Assembly (NCBI RefSeq): GCF_006483445.1
Contig: NZ_PPPT01000153.1
Span: forward strand, 1-64,000
From: Bradyrhizobium guangdongense
GTDB taxonomy: Bacteria; Pseudomonadota; Alphaproteobacteria; Rhizobiales; Xanthobacteraceae
Direction: 5' to 3'
DNA: 64,000 bases
In this document: in pieces, positions 7,245 to 17,412 of the stretch
Numbering within the stretch: position 1 is the stretch's first letter
How the letters are laid out: every line of letters begins with the position of its first letter
The notes under the pieces: model-generated
Seen by the model: the letters and a program-made list of their open reading frames with translations, nothing else
What the model was told of the DNA's origin: nothing
The model's database searches: none
Made by a program: the position numbers and the translations under genes

Positions 7245-9077
7245 TCAGTTGCAGACCTCTACGTTCGACCCTTTGATAAACTCCAGCCGGCAGCCGGCGC
7301 GAACCGGGCGACACCCAACTGTGGCGGCGCAAAAGATTTGCCCGCTGGTCTGCGGCTTCGCCGGTTTGGATTCGGTCTGCTTGCGCTCGGCATCCCGTCT
7401 GTTGGCGTCGTCGCGGGTCGCCACCGGCTTCTTGTCCTGAATCCTCTCGCATTCATTGTCGTCATTGACGCGGAAGCCGGCGCGGCACGTGATCTTGACG
7501 CAGGCATCGCCGTCGGCCTTGAAGCCGCGATCGCAGATCAGGGGACAGACGCGGCCTTGTTTGGCCTTGATCGCATCGAACGTATCGACGCTCGCAAGCT
7601 TGGTGTCGAGCTTCATGCCGGCATATTTGTTGAACAGCGTCAGCGAGCGTTGCGACGACGCGTTCCAGTCGCCGTCGGCCGGCGTCGTCAGGCAGCCAAC
7701 GCGGCGCAACTCCGATTGCACGAGCTTCGTCGTCTCCTGCGGTGAGAGGCCCGGCTGCAATGGAGTCGGGGCGAGGACGGCGATCTTCTGTTCGCCGTCA
7801 GGCTGCGCTTTTTGCTCGGCGGGTTGTTTGGCAGTCGCTTCCGCGGCCGCCTTCTCCTTCACGAGCTTGTCGGCCAATGCCTTCTCGGCGGCCTGCTTGT
7901 CGGCCTGCGCCTTTGCCGCTGCGGCCTCGGCGTCCTTACGGCGTTGCTCGGCGGCGGCTGCCTTGGCTTCTTCGGCCTGCTTGGCCTTCTCGGCGGCGAG
8001 CCGTGCATCTTCAGCCGCCTTTGCGGCCGCGGCGGCCTTCTCCTGGTCGGCCTTCCTGGCCCGGTCGGCCACAAGCCGTGCTTTCTCGTCCTCGGCCTGA
8101 CGAGCCTTCTCCGCGGCGGCCGCACGTGTTTCTTCGGCGGCGATCCGGTTCAACTGACCTTTGGCAAGGCTCGCGTAGAAGCCATCGGGATATTGCTCGA
8201 GGAAGGCCGTCCAGACCTCCCGGGAGCCGATCTGGAGCGCCAGCTCATAGTCCCGGCGTATCGCGTCCTGAGGGTTAGCCTGCGGCCCAGTCGCAGTCGC
8301 GACCGGCTTCAACGGAACCAGCGGAACGTCGTCGCCACCGAGGGAGCCATAAACATAGGGCTCCTGCTTGTAGGCGGTGGCCTTGAGGACGTCGTCGCGC
8401 ACGAAGCCAAAGGCCTTGCGCAGGTCGAGCCCCGGCGTTGGGAGGCGGTCAGCGAGAGCGACGGCAAACGGACTGTTCTTGCTGTCGCCGTCGGATGCGG
8501 TCGAGCCGGCTTTTGCCGCAAACGCGATCATGGTGTTCGGGCTCGTCGGCTCGACCTTTGCGAGACCGCGACCGATGGCACGAGAGGCCATCGTCCGTCG
8601 CATCGTCTTGGAAAAGGGATTGTCGCGACAGGCATCGAGGATGATGAGCCGAAGTTGCTTCGCAGGCTCCACGGCATAGAGGGCGCGATCCAGCGCGATG
8701 GTCTCGTCGAGCACGTCACCGTCCGACTCCAGGGACGCGTCGGTCGGGATCAGGTAATTCGTTCCGTCGAGTTCGATGCCGTGCCCTGCATAATAGATCA
8801 CGGCGACGTCCGCATCGCGCGTTCGGTTGCCGAACTCGCGGAACGCGCGTCGCATCTCGGATGCATTGACGTCCAGTTTGATCTCGACCAGGTCGAACCC
8901 GGCCTTCTTGAACATGCCCCCGATCAAGGTCGCGTCGTTGGTCGGATTCGAGAGTTTTGCCACGGTCTTGTAGGCGGAATTGCCGATCACCAAAGCGACC
9001 CGTTTTTCGGCGTGGGCCGAACCGCCGCTTAACCACAGAGCAATCAGAAAAGGAGCGAAAAACCGAAGTGCGCCCAT
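7245..9077 (-). CDS. Exported caspase-family (peptidase C14) protein with coiled-coil stalk
   Basis: A 610-residue protein. A signal peptide (residues 1-23) is followed by a p20-like caspase domain to about residue 240. The catalytic dyad is His99 in YYAGHGIE and Cys150 in ILDACRDNPF. Next comes a long Ala/Lys/Glu-rich helical stalk (about 310-420). A region around 450-490 (SELRRVGCLTTPADGDW) looks like a peptidoglycan-binding-type helical repeat, and the C-terminus is Cys-rich (VCPLICDRGF, KITCRAGFRVNDDNECE). Bacterial members cleave after Arg/Lys or Asp, but substrates are unknown. ATG at 9077 was chosen with GAGG upstream. No obvious partner gene is adjacent. Confidence 0.88.
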   Translation of the reverse strand: MGALRFFAPFLIALWLSGGSAHAEKRVALVIGNSAYKTVAKLSNPTNDATLIGGMFKKAGFDLVEIKLDVNASEMRRAFREFGNRTRDADVAVIYYAGHGIELDGTNYLIPTDASLESDGDVLDETIALDRALYAVEPAKQLRLIILDACRDNPFSKTMRRTMASRAIGRGLAKVEPTSPNTMIAFAAKAGSTASDGDSKNSPFAVALADRLPTPGLDLRKAFGFVRDDVLKATAYKQEPYVYGSLGGDDVPLVPLKPVATATGPQANPQDAIRRDYELALQIGSREVWTAFLEQYPDGFYASLAKGQLNRIAAEETRAAAAEKARQAEDEKARLVADRARKADQEKAAAAAKAAEDARLAAEKAKQAEEAKAAAAEQRRKDAEAAAAKAQADKQAAEKALADKLVKEKAAAEATAKQPAEQKAQPDGEQKIAVLAPTPLQPGLSPQETTKLVQSELRRVGCLTTPADGDWNASSQRSLTLFNKYAGMKLDTKLASVDTFDAIKAKQGRVCPLICDRGFKADGDACVKITCRAGFRVNDDNECERIQDKKPVATRDDANRRDAERKQTESKPAKPQTSGQIFCAATVGCRPVRAGCRLEFIKGSNVEVCN

Positions 9078-9387
9078 CAAGGCCTCAAATCACAATTCGC
9101 TGAGAGTATTGGGATATTCATCGATGGCAAAGACGCATTTTGCCCCATCGGCATAGCTAAAAGTCTCGCGGAGGTCATCCGACAGGGGGCCGGATCCTTA
9201 ACGTCGAGATGAAGGGCTTCCCATCGATCGGGAACAAGTGGCAATCGGCGCCGTTTTGGCTTTGCTGGGGCTCTGCCCCAGAGTGTCTGCCACTTGCGGT
9301 CCCGGCCATCCGGCTGGGGCCGCACTTTTGGATTGGCTGGCGAGCTGGTTGCGCAAGGACCCCACCACCATCCGCGTGCTCACGCGG
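9078..9387. other. Intergenic, no supported gene
   Basis: About 310 bp upstream of the caspase gene, presumably holding its promoter. A GGGGCTCTGCCCC hairpin lies near 9268-9281. Open frames crossing it have no family resemblance. One of them carries a short stretch (TRMVVGSL) similar to the C-terminus of the TetR protein encoded at 9804. Confidence 0.35.
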
Positions 9388-10549: not shown

Positions 10550-11521
10550 ATGAGCGTTGCAAAGATCGTCTCGTCCCTGCAGTTCTGCCCGGCCGTGCGC
10601 GCGGGGGCGCCGTCACCGCGCGATCCGGCGCCGAGCCTGCAGAGCCGCTGCTTCAACCTTCTGCTGCGGCGGATGCCTTTCAAGGCTCAGCTTGCCTCCG
10701 CCGAGGCCGTTCAGGCGCATGTGCAGAAGCTCGCCTTGCAGCCGGCGTCGTTTGAGCCGCCGAATCTCGGGCGCGGCGTCGAGGTGACGTTGACGAAGAT
10801 GGGGGGATGGCCGGTCTACTACACGGCGCCGTCGTCAGGCCACGAGGGCCGCAACTACGTCATGTTCCTGCATGGCGGCGGCTATATCAACGAGATCGTG
10901 CCGGCACATTGGCGCTTCGTCGGTCGGATGACGCGGAAAGCGCGCGTCGTTTGTGTCGTGCCGATCTATCCGCTGGCGCCGCGGGTCACCGCGAGGGACA
11001 CCGTGCCTGCGACGGCCGAGCTGTTGCGCATGCTGCTGGAGGACGCCGGGTCGGCGAAGGTGACCATTGTCGGCAATTCGGCCGGCGCGGGCCTGGCGCT
11101 CGCCGCCTGCCAATGGCTCAGGGATCGCGGGCATCGGCAACCGGACAGGATGGTTTTGATCTCGCCCGCAGCCGATGCTTCGGTCAGCCGTCCCGAGCAA
11201 ATGGCGATCGCGGCACGCGATCCGGTCCAGGACATTCCCGGCATCGTCGAGGCGGGGCGTCTCTATGCCGGCGAGCTCGAAGTCGGCCATCCCTTCGTCA
11301 GCCCGTTGAATGGTGCTTTCCGCTCGCTCGCACCGATGCTGATCTTCGCAGGGACGCGCGATCTGCTGTACCCCGACAGTGTCGATCTGGCCGCGCGGGC
11401 GCGGGCGATCGGCGTGCCGGTCGAACTTCATCTGCGCCGCGAGCAGCCGCACAATTACGCACTGATGCCGACGCCGGAGGGGCGGGAGGCGCGGAGGATC
11501 ATTTTGAAGGCAGTGGCCTGA
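10550..11521 (+). CDS. Alpha/beta hydrolase (hormone-sensitive lipase-like esterase)
   Basis: A 323-residue esterase. The oxyanion-hole motif HGGG is at about residues 108-111 and the nucleophile elbow GNSAGAG has Ser at about 177. A GTRDLLYPD acid loop and a QPHNYALMP His near the end complete the triad. There is no signal peptide. In-frame starts exist at 10523, 10529 and 10550; I chose 10550 because the upstream residues do not look like the family. It is divergent from the TetR gene, so it is probably TetR-regulated. Members hydrolyse short-chain esters; the true substrate is unknown. Confidence 0.85.
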   Translation: MSVAKIVSSLQFCPAVRAGAPSPRDPAPSLQSRCFNLLLRRMPFKAQLASAEAVQAHVQKLALQPASFEPPNLGRGVEVTLTKMGGWPVYYTAPSSGHEGRNYVMFLHGGGYINEIVPAHWRFVGRMTRKARVVCVVPIYPLAPRVTARDTVPATAELLRMLLEDAGSAKVTIVGNSAGAGLALAACQWLRDRGHRQPDRMVLISPAADASVSRPEQMAIAARDPVQDIPGIVEAGRLYAGELEVGHPFVSPLNGAFRSLAPMLIFAGTRDLLYPDSVDLAARARAIGVPVELHLRREQPHNYALMPTPEGREARRIILKAVA

Positions 11522-11800
11522 GGGGTTGACGCTGTCGATCGCGAACGCCCTCCTGATACCATCCCAGTGGAGCGGCACGGCTTGTCCGCTCCACTGTCGA
11601 CAAAAAGCAGGGGAGAGCTGATGGACGATGTGAATTTCCCGTCATCGTCCGACTTGACCGTAGCGTGCGGCTCGTAAAAGCTACAACCAGAGCATCTGCC
11701 GGCCTATTGATTTCATTCCGAGCACGGAAGCACGCGGCTTGAGACGCATTGACCGTCTCCAGCAGGCCGCTTGCACAAAAGCGCGAAAGTACCCGATCCA

Positions 11801-14662
11801 ATGATTGACGACGTTTCTTTCAGTCATCGACTTCTACCGGGATCGCTTTGGCTGCAAACCGCGATCTTGGCTGCCCTGCTGCTCCTCGGCTCTTCGGTCG
11901 TCGAGAGTGCCGCCAAGACGCGTCGAGTAAAGGACCAGACGACGGAGACGTGGGCATGGAGCCAGATCAAGTCGGGAAATGCGGTCGATTTCAACAGTCG
12001 TTGCCGAACGCCCAATCTCGAGTCTCACTCCCGCGACGAGGCAAACGATACCCTTTGGAAGAACGAGTGCCGGACCATTCGCGCTAGCTTTCTGGTCGAC
12101 CTGCTGACGCGAGCTCAATATGCGAACGGGATGAAGCCTCGCGGAGTCGAGCTGATTGGTGCGCGCATCGTCGGCGATGTCGGCCTTCAGAGCGCAAGGA
12201 TAAAGCAGGCCGTCCTCGTTCGAGGCGGTCGGGTTGAAGGTGACGTGGACTTAACGGGCGCTCGCATTGAAAGTCTTTTCGGGGTGACGGAGTCGCGCAT
12301 CACTGGCAGTTTTTTCGGAAGCAATCTTGAAAGTACCGCGTCGCTGGCGCTTGGAGACAACGACTTTGAAAAGTCGGTCTTGCTCGATAGCGCCAAGGTC
12401 GCCGCAAACGTCGATCTGAGCGGCGCGATCGTGGCCGAGGTGCTGAACGCAGATACAATCCAGGTTGGGTCACACTTCGTCCTGAGTGGCAGCGAGCTCA
12501 GGCGAGCCAAATTCAATTATGTAAATTTGGCGGGGGCCAGGATCAATGGCAACATCAGGTGTGAAGGCACGACCGTGACCGGCGAGTTCGATGCCAACTC
12601 TGCTCAGGTTGGCGCCAGCTTGATCATGGGTTCCCCGGATAATCTGCAAACGCAGTTTGAAACGATCAGAATCGACGGCGCGAGGATCGCCGGGCACGTG
12701 CTGCTGAGCGGCGCAACGATCAATGGAACCCTGAATGCCGAGGTGATCCAGGTCGGCGGAGATTTCCTGCTCGGAGCTACGAATACACGCGGAGCGGAAT
12801 TTCGTGACGTGGTCCTCAGGTCGGGCAGGATTGCCGGCGGCTTGGTGTTTGCAGGGACGCCCACTGATGCGACGCTTTACGCCGATCATATGCAGATCGG
12901 CGCGGATATGTCGATCATCAGTCCTCCGTGGGCGCCGCCGGTGCGCTTTAAAGCGGTGAACTTGAGATCCGCAAGAATTGCAGCAGAAATCGTGTTGAAC
13001 GCGATCCAGGTTGACGAAACCTTTGATGCCAGTTCGATGCAACTCGGCTCCCATCTCATCGTGGGGCCGGGGAGCGTTCTCGCGCAGTTGGAGCTCAATA
13101 GCTCGAAGATCGGAGGTAACCTCGAGTTTTCGGGTGTCACGCTGAGTGGCAGCCTAAACGCGGACGCGATCGAGGTTGGAGCTCACGTTCGCATGGTATC
13201 CAACGCGCTCAGGCAGACGACTCTAAAGCGGGCGAATCTGGCTCTGGCGAAGGTTGTCGGCGACCTTGATGCTCGTGGCACAACGTTCCAATCCCTGGAC
13301 GTTTCTGGCGCCACGATCTCCGGGAACGTTATCCTGGAAAGCGCGAACTTCGAGGAAGACGTCATCGCGGACTCCGCTCAAATCGGGGCGCGTTTTTTGA
13401 TGAGCTCCGACAAGAGCCGCGAGACGAGCGTGAGAAGCATATCGCTGACCAATGCTCGGGTCGCAGGATATGTTGATTTAAGCGGTGTGGGGCTCCGAGG
13501 AGACATTGACCTGACGTTGATTCAAGCCGGTTCTCACCTGGCGCTGAATTCAACGCACGTTCCAATATTGAACAGCACTTTTTTGGGAGGCGCCAAGATA
13601 GCTGGCAACCTCAACATCGCCAACTCGGCGTCGATTGGCTCATTGCTTGCGGCTTCGATGCAGGTGGGCGGAGATGTTCTGATACTGGGTTCTCAGGTCG
13701 CGGATCTGAATGTGACTGGCGCGAAAGTCGCCGGTCAGCTTGCAATGGATAACTCTACGTTGCGTGGCCGAATGGCTGCCAACACTGTTGATGTTGGCGG
13801 GTCAGTTAGCTTACGCGGGATCAAAAGCAGGCTGTCGATTGGCCTGATATCATCTCGGATTGCCAGCAATCTTGATGTGAAACGCGCCAAGCTCGCGCGG
13901 TTGGACCTTTCGGGTACGACGATAGGTGGAGACTTCCGGCTCGGGGGAAACCAGGACTCGGTGATTTGGGAGGATCCCTACTCCGACTCCGGGGACCTGG
14001 TGCTGCGGGATACAAGGGTCACAAATCTGGTGGATGCGCGCGATGCCTGGCCCAAGACCAAGCATTTGCACTTGGACGGATTTTCCTTTTCCCACTTGGG
14101 AGGCTTCGGAGCGAGCGGAAGCTCGACGAACGAGGAGAAGCGCGACTCGAAATGGTGGGACGAGTGGGCGAAACGCGATCCGAACTATAGCACCATGCCG
14201 TACGAGCAACTCGCGTTGGCAATGTCGGCCGCGGGGGATCGCGGTGCTGCCGACGACATGAGGTTTTTTAACCGACGGCGACAACACGAGACGGAAAAGA
14301 GCTGGTGGCCGTGGATCGGCTCCGGATTTGTCCAATATACGACCGGCTACGGCATTGGGGACTATACGTGGCGCGTCCTCTTCTGTGTGGCGTTCATCTC
14401 AGCGATTGGCGCAACGTATCTTCGTCTCTATGTCCCGAATGCACGGAGCCACGGTCTGACATGGTGCGTCTTTGCGACCGTCTCCCGATTGCTCCCGATC
14501 ATCGAGATCAACAAGGAGTTTACGGAATTCTTTGAGGATCCCCATCGGAAGAATCTGACCCGCCGGGAGATGTTTGCGTTCTCGCTGATCGGCATTGCCG
14601 GCTGGTTGCTAGGAGCCATGCTGATTGCCGCGGTGTCAGGATTGACGCAAAAGGGTGGCTGA
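11801..14662 (+). CDS. Large membrane-anchored beta-solenoid repeat protein
   Basis: A 953-residue protein. One hydrophobic segment near residues 16-34 may be a signal anchor. A long repetitive region (about 110-740) is full of ARIAG(H/N)(V/L) and LSGATI(N/S)G motifs, and a (Q/E)(V/I/L)G element recurs at residues 221, 269, 317, 365, 414, 458, 527, 575, 621 and 664, mostly 48 apart. The C-terminus has YEQLALAMSAAGDRGAADDM and then two or three membrane segments (about 856-876 and 922-946). The layout resembles the loosely named 'membrane-associated oxidoreductase' proteins, for which no activity is established. An alternative TTG start lies at 11771. Base composition is visibly less GC-rich than its neighbours, suggesting transfer. 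Confidence 0.8.
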   Translation: MIDDVSFSHRLLPGSLWLQTAILAALLLLGSSVVESAAKTRRVKDQTTETWAWSQIKSGNAVDFNSRCRTPNLESHSRDEANDTLWKNECRTIRASFLVDLLTRAQYANGMKPRGVELIGARIVGDVGLQSARIKQAVLVRGGRVEGDVDLTGARIESLFGVTESRITGSFFGSNLESTASLALGDNDFEKSVLLDSAKVAANVDLSGAIVAEVLNADTIQVGSHFVLSGSELRRAKFNYVNLAGARINGNIRCEGTTVTGEFDANSAQVGASLIMGSPDNLQTQFETIRIDGARIAGHVLLSGATINGTLNAEVIQVGGDFLLGATNTRGAEFRDVVLRSGRIAGGLVFAGTPTDATLYADHMQIGADMSIISPPWAPPVRFKAVNLRSARIAAEIVLNAIQVDETFDASSMQLGSHLIVGPGSVLAQLELNSSKIGGNLEFSGVTLSGSLNADAIEVGAHVRMVSNALRQTTLKRANLALAKVVGDLDARGTTFQSLDVSGATISGNVILESANFEEDVIADSAQIGARFLMSSDKSRETSVRSISLTNARVAGYVDLSGVGLRGDIDLTLIQAGSHLALNSTHVPILNSTFLGGAKIAGNLNIANSASIGSLLAASMQVGGDVLILGSQVADLNVTGAKVAGQLAMDNSTLRGRMAANTVDVGGSVSLRGIKSRLSIGLISSRIASNLDVKRAKLARLDLSGTTIGGDFRLGGNQDSVIWEDPYSDSGDLVLRDTRVTNLVDARDAWPKTKHLHLDGFSFSHLGGFGASGSSTNEEKRDSKWWDEWAKRDPNYSTMPYEQLALAMSAAGDRGAADDMRFFNRRRQHETEKSWWPWIGSGFVQYTTGYGIGDYTWRVLFCVAFISAIGATYLRLYVPNARSHGLTWCVFATVSRLLPIIEINKEFTEFFEDPHRKNLTRREMFAFSLIGIAGWLLGAMLIAAVSGLTQKGG

Positions 14663-14769
14663 CGGCAGCAGTCCGTTGAACGCTCGCTTATGCGGGCGAA
14701 TGTGACGGAAGTGACGCACCCGTTGACGAATTTGGCAGCCGCTGACCCCTCGCGGAAAACGGACCGCTG

Positions 14770-15852
14770 TCACCTGGTTTCGGGCAAAGGAAAGCGGCCT
14801 TTGCGCATGCCGAAACCGGATCGCGATCGGCGAAACGAGTTGCCGGGGGTAGGGGGCTCCTTGGGCGTTGCCGCCCCCTTAGGCGTGACCCTTGACCCGT
14901 GCATGTCGCGGAATAGCCGCGGCGGCATGCCGAACCTTCGCTCGAATGCATTGTTGAGGCGGATCGGCGACAGGCCGACCTTGGCGGCAATCTGCTTTAG
15001 CGGGAGCCGCTCGTCGATGAGGATGCGCGCCTGCTCCAGCCGCAGAGCCTCGACGAAATGCGCCGGCGATCGTCCGGTCGCCGACAGGAAGCGGCGATGG
15101 AAGGTCCGCTCGGTCAGACCGGCGCGCTCGGCCAGTGTCGGCACGTCGAGCGGGGCATCGAGGTTGCCCTGCATCCAGGCGATCAAATCCGAGAACGGGC
15201 TCTTGGCCTCGATCTGCGCGTTGAGCAGCGGGCTGAATTGCGATTGATAGCCCGGCCGTCGTGCGTAGAGCACGAGGCGACGCGCGATGGCATTGGCGAG
15301 ATCGGGGCCAAAATCTTCCTCCACCATGGCTAGCGCCATGTCGATGCCGGTCGTGACGCCCGCCGAGGTCCAGACCTTTCCGTCCGTGACGTAGAGCGCC
15401 TCGGGATCGACGGTGATTCCGGGATAGCGCGCCGCGAGCGACGCGCAGGCTTCCCAATGCGTGGCCACGCGGCGCCCCTCGATGAGGCCGAGCGCGGCGA
15501 GGACGAAGGTGCCCGAGCACACCGATCCGAAGCGCCGTACCTTGCTGGCGCAGAGCGGGACCCAGCGGCGAAGCGCGGGATCCGATATCGCGCGTCGCAG
15601 CGCCGGCTCCTCGGCACCTGCGATCAGGAGCGTGTCGATGCGACCGGCCGGCAGGCGCGACAGCGCACGCGTCGAGAGGGCGACGCCGCTGTCGCTCGCC
15701 GTCTCGCCGCCGGCAGGTGACAGCACGGCCACCTCATAGGCCTTGCGTGCGAGCGCGCGGCTCGCCGCGGCGAACACCGCGGCGGGCCCGGTGACGTCGA
15801 GAAGCTGAAAGCCGTCATAGGCGAGCAGCGCGATGGTGCGGGTTTTGGCCAT
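14770..15852 (-). CDS. GlxA-family AraC-type regulator with DJ-1/PfpI domain
   Basis: A 360-residue regulator. An N-terminal DJ-1/PfpI-like sensor domain (IALLAYDGFQLLDVTGPAAV; SVCSGTFVLAALGL with the nucleophile-elbow Cys) leads to a C-terminal AraC helix-turn-helix pair (LAERAGLTERTFHRRFLSAT; QIAAKVGLSPIRLNNAFERR). The tail after 'FRDMHGSRVTPKG' is a non-conserved extension. It is divergent from the stand-alone DJ-1 protein at 15949 with under 100 bp between starts, so it probably senses a small molecule and controls that gene pair. Confidence 0.92.
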   Translation of the reverse strand: MAKTRTIALLAYDGFQLLDVTGPAAVFAAASRALARKAYEVAVLSPAGGETASDSGVALSTRALSRLPAGRIDTLLIAGAEEPALRRAISDPALRRWVPLCASKVRRFGSVCSGTFVLAALGLIEGRRVATHWEACASLAARYPGITVDPEALYVTDGKVWTSAGVTTGIDMALAMVEEDFGPDLANAIARRLVLYARRPGYQSQFSPLLNAQIEAKSPFSDLIAWMQGNLDAPLDVPTLAERAGLTERTFHRRFLSATGRSPAHFVEALRLEQARILIDERLPLKQIAAKVGLSPIRLNNAFERRFGMPPRLFRDMHGSRVTPKGAATPKEPPTPGNSFRRSRSGFGMRKGRFPLPETR

Positions 15853-15948
15853 GTGGCAGAAAATAGCAGTTCTTTGTCATTACTGACAAGGCGAGGAGCG
15901 GTTTAGGGTGTCGCCACCAGCCACCATCAATCCGGAGACCAACACCCC

Positions 15949-16635
15949 ATGCGGCTTTCTATTGTGATCTTCGACGGACTGACCACGCTTGACGCTATCG
16001 GCGGCTATGAGGTGTTGGCGCGCCTTCCCGGCGTGGAAGCGGAGTTCGTGGCGGCCTCGCGCGGCATCGTCGCTGCCGACACAAGGCGGCTCGGGCTGGT
16101 CGCCTGGCGGGGCTTCGACGAGGTCGCGGCCACCGATATCCTCTACGTGCCCGGCGGTCCCGGCGCCTTCGCGCTGGAGAAGGACGAAGGCTTTCTGGAA
16201 AAGCTTCGTCAGCTCGACAACAGCTCGACCTGGACGGTGGGCATCTGCAACGGTGTCGGCCTGCTTGGCGCGGCCGGGATGCTGAGGGGCCGCAGCGTGA
16301 CCACCAACTGGTTCTATCAGGATCGCCTTGCGGCATTCGGCGCGAGCTTCAACGGCGAGCGCTACAGCCGCGACGGCAAATACGTGACGGGCGCCGGCGT
16401 TTCCGCGAGCATCGACACTGGCCTGTTCCTGGCGTCCCTGATCGCAGGCGAACGGGTGGCGAAGGCGCTGCAACTCGGCATCGAATATTACCCCGCGCCG
16501 CCGTTTCCCGAACGCGGTCCCAACGACGTGCCGCAGGAGTTGATGGAGCGTGTGCGCAAGGCGGATGGCAGCACCGAGAGCTTGCGCCTGCAGGCGCCGT
16601 TCCACGGCATGTTCGTGCCGGCGGGTACGACATGA
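15949..16635 (+). CDS. DJ-1/PfpI-family protein (isonitrile hydratase-like)
   Basis: A 228-residue single-domain DJ-1-fold protein. The elbow Cys is Cys100 in TVGICNGVGLLGAAGML, followed by GRSVTTNWFYQD and a GAGVSASIDTGLFL block. This arrangement resembles isocyanide hydratases and other PfpI-like hydrolases. The assignment to isonitrile chemistry is only by similarity of motif order. Its stop overlaps the MAPEG start (ATGA), and it is divergent from the GlxA-type regulator. Confidence 0.85.
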   Translation: MRLSIVIFDGLTTLDAIGGYEVLARLPGVEAEFVAASRGIVAADTRRLGLVAWRGFDEVAATDILYVPGGPGAFALEKDEGFLEKLRQLDNSSTWTVGICNGVGLLGAAGMLRGRSVTTNWFYQDRLAAFGASFNGERYSRDGKYVTGAGVSASIDTGLFLASLIAGERVAKALQLGIEYYPAPPFPERGPNDVPQELMERVRKADGSTESLRLQAPFHGMFVPAGTT

Positions 16636-17054
16636 TCCCGTCACACTCGGCCGCGGTCCTCGCCGCTACCGCGTTCGCGCTTTTCCTGAAGGGGTTCGTC
16701 TTGTCCTACATCCAGGTGGTGTCGCGCTATCGTGCGCGGAGCTTCAACCGGCCGGAAGACGCGCAGCTATTGGGTCTCAAACCCGGAGAGGAGCCCGACA
16801 TCGCGGTCCGGGCCGCTGGCGCGTTGCGCAATGAAGCGGAAAACAGCCCGTTCTTCCTTGCCCTGGCCGCGGCCTACGCGTTGCTCGGCGGCGCGCCGCT
16901 GCCGCTCGCCGTCGTATCGTCGCTCTACGTGGCGGCGCGAATGCTCCAGGGTTACGCGCAGGTGAGGGCGCTGCAGCCGCAGCGAATGATCTTCTACCTG
17001 TCCGGGGTGGCTGCGACGCTCGCGCTCGCCGGGCTGATTGCCGCGCGGGTCTGA
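16632..17054 (+). CDS. MAPEG-family membrane protein
   Basis: A 140-residue protein with four predicted membrane spans. It has the MAPEG landmarks RYRARSFNRPEDAQ, then RNEAENSPFFLALAAAYALL and ARMLQGYAQ. The family includes membrane glutathione transferases, which could detoxify electrophiles. It is coupled to the DJ-1 protein by a 4-bp overlap, suggesting a joint role in electrophile or reactive-compound handling. Confidence 0.88.
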   Translation: MIPSHSAAVLAATAFALFLKGFVLSYIQVVSRYRARSFNRPEDAQLLGLKPGEEPDIAVRAAGALRNEAENSPFFLALAAAYALLGGAPLPLAVVSSLYVAARMLQGYAQVRALQPQRMIFYLSGVAATLALAGLIAARV

Positions 17055-17172
17055 ATGCGATTCGGATGCTCGCGGGCAAGGGCGCCTGCCCAGGCGGAGC
17101 ACTTTGCAGGCCCGTCGGGAGGACAGGGGCGGCCTCCGGGGCGTTTCCTCGATGTTGGGTCTTGCCGCCCCC

Positions 17173-17412
17173 TCAGGCGTGACCCTTGATCTCGTAATGG
17201 CCCGGCACGCATTTGTAGCGGTCGATGCGCCAGTTGGTGCGGTAGATCGGGTGTTCGCCCATCCATTTCGCCACCGGCGCCTGAGCCCCGATTGCACACT
17301 GCATCATCGAGATTTCGGGTGTCATGTTGCTATCGGTCACGATCTCCTCGACACAACTGCCAGTGGCAGCGGTGCCCAGTCGGCAGAGTACGGCAACGAC
17401 GGTCACAAACAT
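17173..17412 (-). CDS. Small exported Cys-containing hypothetical protein
   Basis: A 79-residue protein with a short hydrophobic N-terminus (MFVTVVAVLCRLGTAATG) and three further cysteines in the mature part (SCVEEIV, MMQCAIG, YKCVPGHYEIKGHA). Its start at 17412 follows AGAGGTG, which decides it over the longer open frame. Probably periplasmic. Function unknown. Confidence 0.6.
   Translation of the reverse strand: MFVTVVAVLCRLGTAATGSCVEEIVTDSNMTPEISMMQCAIGAQAPVAKWMGEHPIYRTNWRIDRYKCVPGHYEIKGHA

Follow-up and report, generated by a model that had tools for sequence, protein, structure and literature searches.

A horizontally acquired solenoid gene of Bradyrhizobium guangdongense and the putative pore-loop-like membrane module of its product

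The window analysed here is a stretch of 64,000 nucleotides of Bradyrhizobium guangdongense (contig NZ_PPPT01000153.1, positions 1 to 64,000), which carries at 11801..14662, on the forward (+) strand, an open reading frame (ORF) of 953 codons plus stop. Its 953-residue product, hereafter P0001, joins a long repeat to a C-terminal membrane module, and we tentatively propose that it is a laterally acquired inner-membrane protein holding a periplasmic solenoid on an inverted, pore-loop-like module. The solenoid, the export of the protein and the insertion of its gene are the well supported parts of this proposal, and support for the pore fold is moderate. The periodicity of the repeat and the insertion come directly from computation, as do the two-sided structure of the family to which P0001 belongs and the asymmetry of charge and cysteine content between its sides. 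All features of the protein given below lie on the forward strand.

The repeat of P0001 is real. An element of the form (Q/E/D)(V/I/L/A)G(S/A/G) recurs at residues 221, 269, 317, 365, 414, 458, 527, 575, 621 and 664, with spacings of 48, 48, 48, 49, 44, 69, 48, 46 and 43, and G-A-R-I-like unit starts follow each other 43-69 residues apart from residue 197 onward, one intra-unit match (residue 304) excepted. For residues 101-720, autocorrelation by similarity has its peaks at lags 48 (z 7.2), 22 (7.2), 11 (7.1) and 5 (4.9), and in none of 500 shuffles did any lag from 1 to 150 reach the observed maximum. A first-pass annotation of this DNA had described a 953-residue solenoid with two coils per unit of about 48 residues, flanked by G-A-R-I-x-G segments, with which the ORF, the autocorrelation and the AlphaFold2 model presented below agree; two coils are assigned to each unit because lag 22 and, by eye, the predicted strands concur. 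The 48-residue period then announced holds as the modal step and not as a strict period, the steps ranging from 43 to 69, and the 69-residue step appears to hold one extra coil.

The sole Pfam match of P0001 above cut-off is Pentapeptide_3 (PF13576; 43.8 bits for a cut-off of 27), PF00805 staying below its own (17.8 bits for 20.2). NCBIfam returned no match above cut-off, and a search of the PDB by sequence gave one weak match, the pentapeptide protein NP275 (E 0.018). As Pfam puts the repeat in Pentapeptide_3, the solenoid is predicted to belong to an already known class. P0001 accordingly resembles the pentapeptide repeat proteins (PF13576 / PF00805; NP275, QnrB1, MfpA) in these two matches and in its predicted beta-solenoid, and differs from them by its mean repeat step of 5.4, its coils of about 22-26 residues, its probable export and its fusion to a module with two transmembrane helices. 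A passage of PMC8145042 gives four pentapeptides per coil for pentapeptide proteins. No strict five-residue repeat with four repeats per coil (20 residues) was found in P0001, where lags 10 and 20 are flat and the periodicity of Gly and of Leu/Ile/Val/Phe/Met peaks at 5.4; this argues against the classic pentapeptide kind, while the PF13576 match stands. The Knotted Solenoid proteins of Brevundimonas (PMC13123833) are likewise bacterial beta-solenoids near pentapeptide proteins, but are typically of 100-160 residues, with three-sided coils and knotted, and a membrane module of the P0001 type is not described in the consulted part of that source.

The full-length AlphaFold2 model, computed from an alignment of seven sequences (A3), has a mean predicted local distance difference test score (pLDDT) of 81.2, with 420 residues at 90 or above. 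It shows a confident beta-solenoid at about residues 115-765 and helices after it, blocks of 10 residues scoring 67-97 and mostly above 80, so that the structure prediction recommended in the first pass confirmed the solenoid. From the periodicity, this model and the VIA structural matches, the solenoid is delimited to aa 115-767 (12143..14101), which corresponds to an estimated 27 coils or so (length divided by 24). Among the VIA matches listed, beta-helices were the best (Sf6 tailspike, Z 21.0), while solved pentapeptide proteins, along with synthetic 'Beta1' solenoids, which we take to be pentapeptide-derived, scored Z 12.8-15.5; Foldseek gave no match at E 0.001. Given that non-pentapeptide beta-helices outrank pentapeptide proteins in VIA and that Foldseek is empty at this threshold, the fold alone cannot pick between solenoid classes. 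Judging from the model, P0001 almost certainly contains a beta-solenoid, predicted as a right-handed beta-helix whose handedness is borrowed from the matched structures.

The C-terminal ~100 residues are predicted to form a first transmembrane helix (TM1, aa 852-877, 14354..14431), a re-entrant, pore-helix-like helix (aa 886-898, 14456..14494) and a second transmembrane helix (TM2, aa 921-945, 14561..14635) with a conserved Gly934; P899 and 'IIEIN' follow the re-entrant helix, where a selectivity filter would sit. The two transmembrane helices were drawn from the A4 alignment of C-modules and from the models, the full-length model placing helices at 854-877 and 921-945, and the re-entrant helix from the C-terminal model and its fold matches. 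In the 24 rows of A4, P899 is conserved at 90% or more and a G-x-G just ahead of TM1 (G-Y-G, within TTGYG, in P0001) is invariant. In a model of the C-terminal part only, pLDDT blocks reach 70-87 over model residues 131-220 and 58 where TM1 starts. Foldseek matched this model to NaK (3k0d, probability 0.99) and KcsA (4lcu, probability 0.96), and all 50 rows listed by VIA are pore-loop cation channels at Z 9.4-11.0, 44 of them with a root-mean-square deviation (rmsd) of 2.1-4.0 Å (e.g. NaK 2ahy_B, Z 10.8, 2.2 Å over 83 residues; 3fb8_C, Z 9.5, 2.1 Å over 82 residues). The MthK pore (3ous) was also among the Foldseek matches of the full-length model, with a probability of 0.80 but ranked only 48th, and with an E-value of 4.6. 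A conserved Y-S-L-D-x-L-L-P aligns by eye with the channel pore helix, for which we used what we take to be the KcsA letters, and TM2 retains its glycine (Gly934). The predicted TM1 / re-entrant helix / TM2 fold of P0001 resembles that of the two-TM pore-loop channels (NaK, KcsA, MthK), from which the protein differs by the absence of detectable sequence similarity and of TVGYG in the loop and by its predicted inversion. On these model-based grounds, we consider it reasonably likely that the module folds like pore-loop channels, and do not claim it as a member of Ion_trans_2.

Several results weigh against this fold assignment. The C-terminal model relies on seven sequences and has a mean pLDDT of 62.6, its Foldseek E-values are 0.26 and above, and the rmsd exceeds 11 Å in 6 of the 50 VIA rows, including five of the six best. 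Z-scores near 10 may reflect a common helical arrangement, channel entries are highly redundant and over-represented in the PDB, and VIA re-aligns Foldseek candidates only. The Pfam profile Ion_trans_2 was matched by none of 24 C-modules at E up to 10, and a PDB profile search with the C-module gave 12 weak matches with no channel among them. The comparison by hhalign with 25 Ion_trans_2 pores had a probability of 0.6%, unchanged in a longer register; the score of the real alignment was equalled or exceeded by 2 of 100 column shuffles, and the highest shuffle probability was 99.6%. TVGYG is absent from the TM1-TM2 loop, which reads LLPIIEIN in P0001 (P-I-I-x-I/L). Sequence methods give no confirmation of channel homology.

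A motif reminiscent of the K+ filter, G-(Y/H/F)-G, stands directly ahead of TM1 in 31 of the 39 family members described below (P0001, at 14345-14353, and 30 relatives), and 13 of the 39 have the full form T(V/I/T/L)G(Y/F)G. Its interpretation as a K+ filter was rejected, as the model shows no preceding hydrophobic helix and hhalign, in an alignment that is not significant, pairs TM2 with the channel inner helix and not GYG with GYG.

The lack of a channel signature by sequence favours an alternative that we regard as quite possible, namely a membrane-anchored solenoid scaffold or adhesin-like rod, in which the C-module would only anchor or dimerise the protein and its pore-loop likeness would be a chance arrangement of helices. 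The wide length variation of the family (436-969 codons), as for scaffolds, points in the same direction. Against a mere anchor stand the fact that the module is alignable in both branches of the family and across phyla, the conservation of its G-x-G and proline, and the assignment of all 50 listed fold rows to one superfamily. A conducting pore would be a purely hypothetical and rather unlikely function of the module.

Relatives of P0001 were gathered from whole genomes, named contigs and plasmid records. The only match of P0001 in its own genome is the gene itself. With P0001 as query, a match was found in 1 of 248 genomes of a family-wide draw (its own only) and in 10 of 385 of a class-wide draw, own included; with alignment A2 as query, 20 of 398 genomes drawn across the phylum were matched, and with the C-module alignment A4, 17 of 385 genomes of the class. 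In named contigs, A2 retrieved eight loci (Microvirga, B. elkanii, an Acetobacteraceae and a Desulfurellaceae metagenome-assembled genome, and others), two of them fragments, and the same kind of scan with P0001 alone retrieved nothing. Plasmid records yielded 4 matches with P0001 and 36 with a signal-less relative (Streptomyces, Rhodococcus, Rhizobium, Shinella, Acaryochloris and others), of which 13 records were fetched. After removal of the ORFs cut at the locus end or with an incomplete C-module (L026, L119 and L127 being thereby left out), 41 uncut ORFs carried the module according to the A4 profile, with stop-to-stop lengths of 436-969 codons, apart from a 204-codon fragment. The fragments L124 and L131 were dropped, and 39 members were kept, the near copies L085 and L086 both counted. 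L076 and L077 are decayed Methylocystis copies, with matches to C-terminal fragments only and stops around. Among the literature matches listed, titles and abstract openings contain no description of this family.

The name "membrane-associated oxidoreductase", invoked in the first pass with the remark that no chemistry is demonstrated, belongs to distant Streptomyces relatives, being carried by Streptomyces anulatus members; neither Pfam nor NCBIfam shows an oxidoreductase domain in P0001. The C-module of the so-named Streptomyces protein WP_331764204 (L129) is homologous to that of P0001 (E 9e-38 by the A4 profile, built without L129). Unlike in P0001, hydropathy indicates no signal peptide in this protein, and its C-tail contains two Arg (RNLNRQ); an opposite topology is predicted from these features.

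Computed without the last 8 residues, the maximum-likelihood tree of all 39 C-modules separates 15 members including P0001 from the 24 others (ultrafast bootstrap 94, SH-like approximate likelihood ratio test 99), and the tallies of tail, loop and cysteine follow these two sides. A signal-peptide-like N-terminus occurs in 14 of the 15 members on P0001's side versus none of the 24 on the other. At least two K/R among the last six residues are found in 2/15 versus 20/24 (p 2.9e-5), and (R/K)(R/K)(D/E) in the C-tail in 0/15 versus 12/24. The loop has a mean net charge of +1.3 on P0001's side versus -3.1 (p 1.6e-5), and the median number of solenoid Cys per 100 aa is 0.16 versus 1.57 (p 0.002). 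Tail charge, loop charge and solenoid Cys differ as expected if the solenoid lies outside on P0001's side and inside on the other, suggesting opposite membrane orientations, and we slightly favour the view that the two branches have opposite membrane topologies.

Other aspects of the same data temper this view. The bootstrap of 94 for the 15 / 24 split falls just under 95. The hydropathy threshold was chosen after the values had been seen (13 of 15 pass), and L136 was added by eye, its hydropathy (1.60) being lower than that of two members of the other side (1.74 and 1.64). Two or more Cys in the N-domain are present in 15/15 versus 16/24 members, a weak discrimination. The branch statistics count related, non-independent sequences, and the p-values express that the two branches differ, which may go back to a single event. 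P0001's side also has its exceptions: no signal is visible in L074, the tails of L074 and L092 are charged, the loops of L070 and L074 are negative, and the solenoids of L092 and L136 are rich in Cys.

The N-terminal membrane segment considered possible in the first pass corresponds most plausibly to a predicted Sec signal peptide, or else to an anchor that stays uncleaved (aa 1-37, 11801..11911), with a 16-residue hydropathy maximum of 1.94; the C-terminal membrane segments also announced there were retained, as more than a plain anchor. Many relatives have AxA-like sites by eye, P0001's own site being less clear, and its hydrophobic stretch is modelled with low confidence as a helix at 15-44. 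A conserved helical N-domain with Cys68 and Cys90 follows (aa 46-114, 11936..12142), defined from alignments A1 and A2, the model helices and the Cys positions. Between solenoid and membrane module, a helical linker (aa 783-848, 14147..14344), partly TPR-like (PYEQLA...G...A), is modelled with low to moderate confidence; weak Pfam TPR matches occur in single family members (best E 0.015), and the designed helical repeats retrieved by a PDB profile search had E-values of 0.012 or higher. On the whole, P0001 is very probably exported.

The lower GC and the possible acquisition of the gene, both suggested in the first pass, were upheld. With a GC content of 0.573, it is the lowest of the 55 genes called in the window by a crude gene caller, and two of its 1-kb bins are the two lowest in GC of 64. 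Its GC at third codon positions (GC3) is 0.67; the other 54 genes average 0.81 (sd 0.07), and only one of them is lower. The gene belongs to an insert of ~5.6 kb (11526..17108, ends +/- 70 bases) missing from congeners: in all eight congeneric loci compared, the match to the window breaks off at 11493-11525 and resumes at 17109-17173, after an interval of 54-154 bases in seven loci and of 826 in the eighth. These loci were selected through the hydrolase gene lying upstream, for which 18 of 41 genomes, own included, gave a match; of the 11 other genomes in which this match was strong, 8 are represented. Within the genus, 2 of 146 genomes contain P0001 or a relative, own included. We hold horizontal acquisition of the gene to be nearly certain. 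Low GC3 was considered as a mark of the whole family: of 27 loci, 20 have a family gene whose GC3 is below the weighted mean of its neighbours (Wilcoxon 0.0015, sign test 0.019). In this set one contig occurs twice (L029 = L071), L131 is counted and L026 is without usable target. Low GC3 fails in the 7 other loci and was rejected as such a mark.

The three other genes of the insert, assigned by Pfam, encode a GlxA-like regulator with DJ-1/PfpI and HTH_18 domains (14770..15852, - strand), a DJ-1/PfpI protein (15949..16635, + strand) and a MAPEG family protein (16632..17054, + strand). Their GC3 is 0.82-0.84 and the solenoid gene alone has an unusual composition, hence the insert may be composite. 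A 35-base repeat (91%) at 14861-14895 and 17155-17189 brackets the DJ-1/MAPEG part, its second copy at the right junction, and suggests a two-step insertion or a repeat-mediated recombination.

In the model that we tentatively propose, the Sec signal would send the N-cap domain and the ~27-coil pentapeptide-like beta-solenoid to the periplasm, where the rod would span an estimated ~13 nm (4.8 Å per coil), and the helical linker would connect it to the C-terminal TM1 / re-entrant helix / TM2 module in the inner membrane. This module would hold a pore-loop cation-channel fold devoid of the K+ filter, in inverted orientation, with the loop to the cytoplasm and the C-tail outside, as in ionotropic glutamate receptors. 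Its oligomers would constitute a pore, or a hub resembling one, to which the solenoid would couple a periplasmic partner that it senses or docks. Members of the sister branch would carry this module in the reverse orientation, and their solenoid would be cytoplasmic. We infer signal cleavage, orientation and oligomerisation; a ligand and gating, like conduction, would be purely hypothetical. GluR0 and the ionotropic glutamate receptors, as presented in part of PMC6385376, similarly combine an outside sensor-like domain with an inverted pore-loop module. This likeness in topology is by analogy only, P0001 having a solenoid instead of a substrate-binding domain, and no homology is claimed.

Taken further, these elements would define a widespread undescribed family of solenoid-coupled pore-loop proteins using one two-TM module in both orientations. 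The pore, whose filter would be hydrophobic and not of the K+ type, would be gated by the solenoid. P0001's branch would be inverted and glutamate-receptor-like, and the "membrane-associated oxidoreductase" branch upright and K+-channel-like, with a cytoplasmic solenoid. We judge this joint claim unlikely as it stands. If it were true, the proteins under the empty "oxidoreductase" label would be solenoid-coupled, pore-like membrane proteins, and they would be a natural example of a single pore-loop module that works in either orientation, which is relevant to how the glutamate-receptor-like inversion can arise. If the module only anchors the solenoid, the annotation would still be corrected, and an exported solenoid gene would be seen moving between bacteria.

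An improbable alternative is a protease-linked conflict or immunity component, in which the solenoid would provide the recognition surface and the membrane module would act as effector. Three relatives do lie near protease-type genes (L025, Trypsin_2+Exo_endo_phos; L136, a caspase and an annotated C1 peptidase; L135, Trypco1 and caspase-nSTAND1), and the distribution is patchy and partly on plasmids. Conversely, neighbours in 11 loci are, by eye and L025 apart, ordinary and not conserved, with no conserved operon apparent (10 neighbour genes scanned by Pfam), and the insert neighbours of P0001 are the DJ-1 and MAPEG genes. PADLOC gave no match for P0001 or for two signal-less members (L036, L037), and phage records none with P0001 or with a signal-less member. 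A defence family was rejected on the empty PADLOC result, a lone match of L024 to Cas7 (E 0.005) being taken as solenoid noise, and so was a phage origin, unmatched in phage records and with no relative confirmed in viral contigs. An oxidoreductase is hardly credible, as it has only the name of the Streptomyces relatives in its favour: P0001 has no redox domain by Pfam or NCBIfam, none of seven relatives reaches an NCBIfam cut-off, and the PDB sequence matches (one pentapeptide protein for P0001 and the 12 weak ones of the C-module) include no oxidoreductase.

Some neighbouring genes are recorded here as side observations. Upstream of the insert, at 7245-9080 (- strand), lies a caspase-like gene with a long Ala/Glu-rich linker, its domain named by eye. 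The fused Trypsin_2 and Exo_endo_phos protein (L025:4629-7643) is encoded directly upstream of the Mesorhizobium plasmid relative, and the Acaryochloris plasmid relative is located near the Trypco1 and caspase-nSTAND1 genes (L135:6651-13125).

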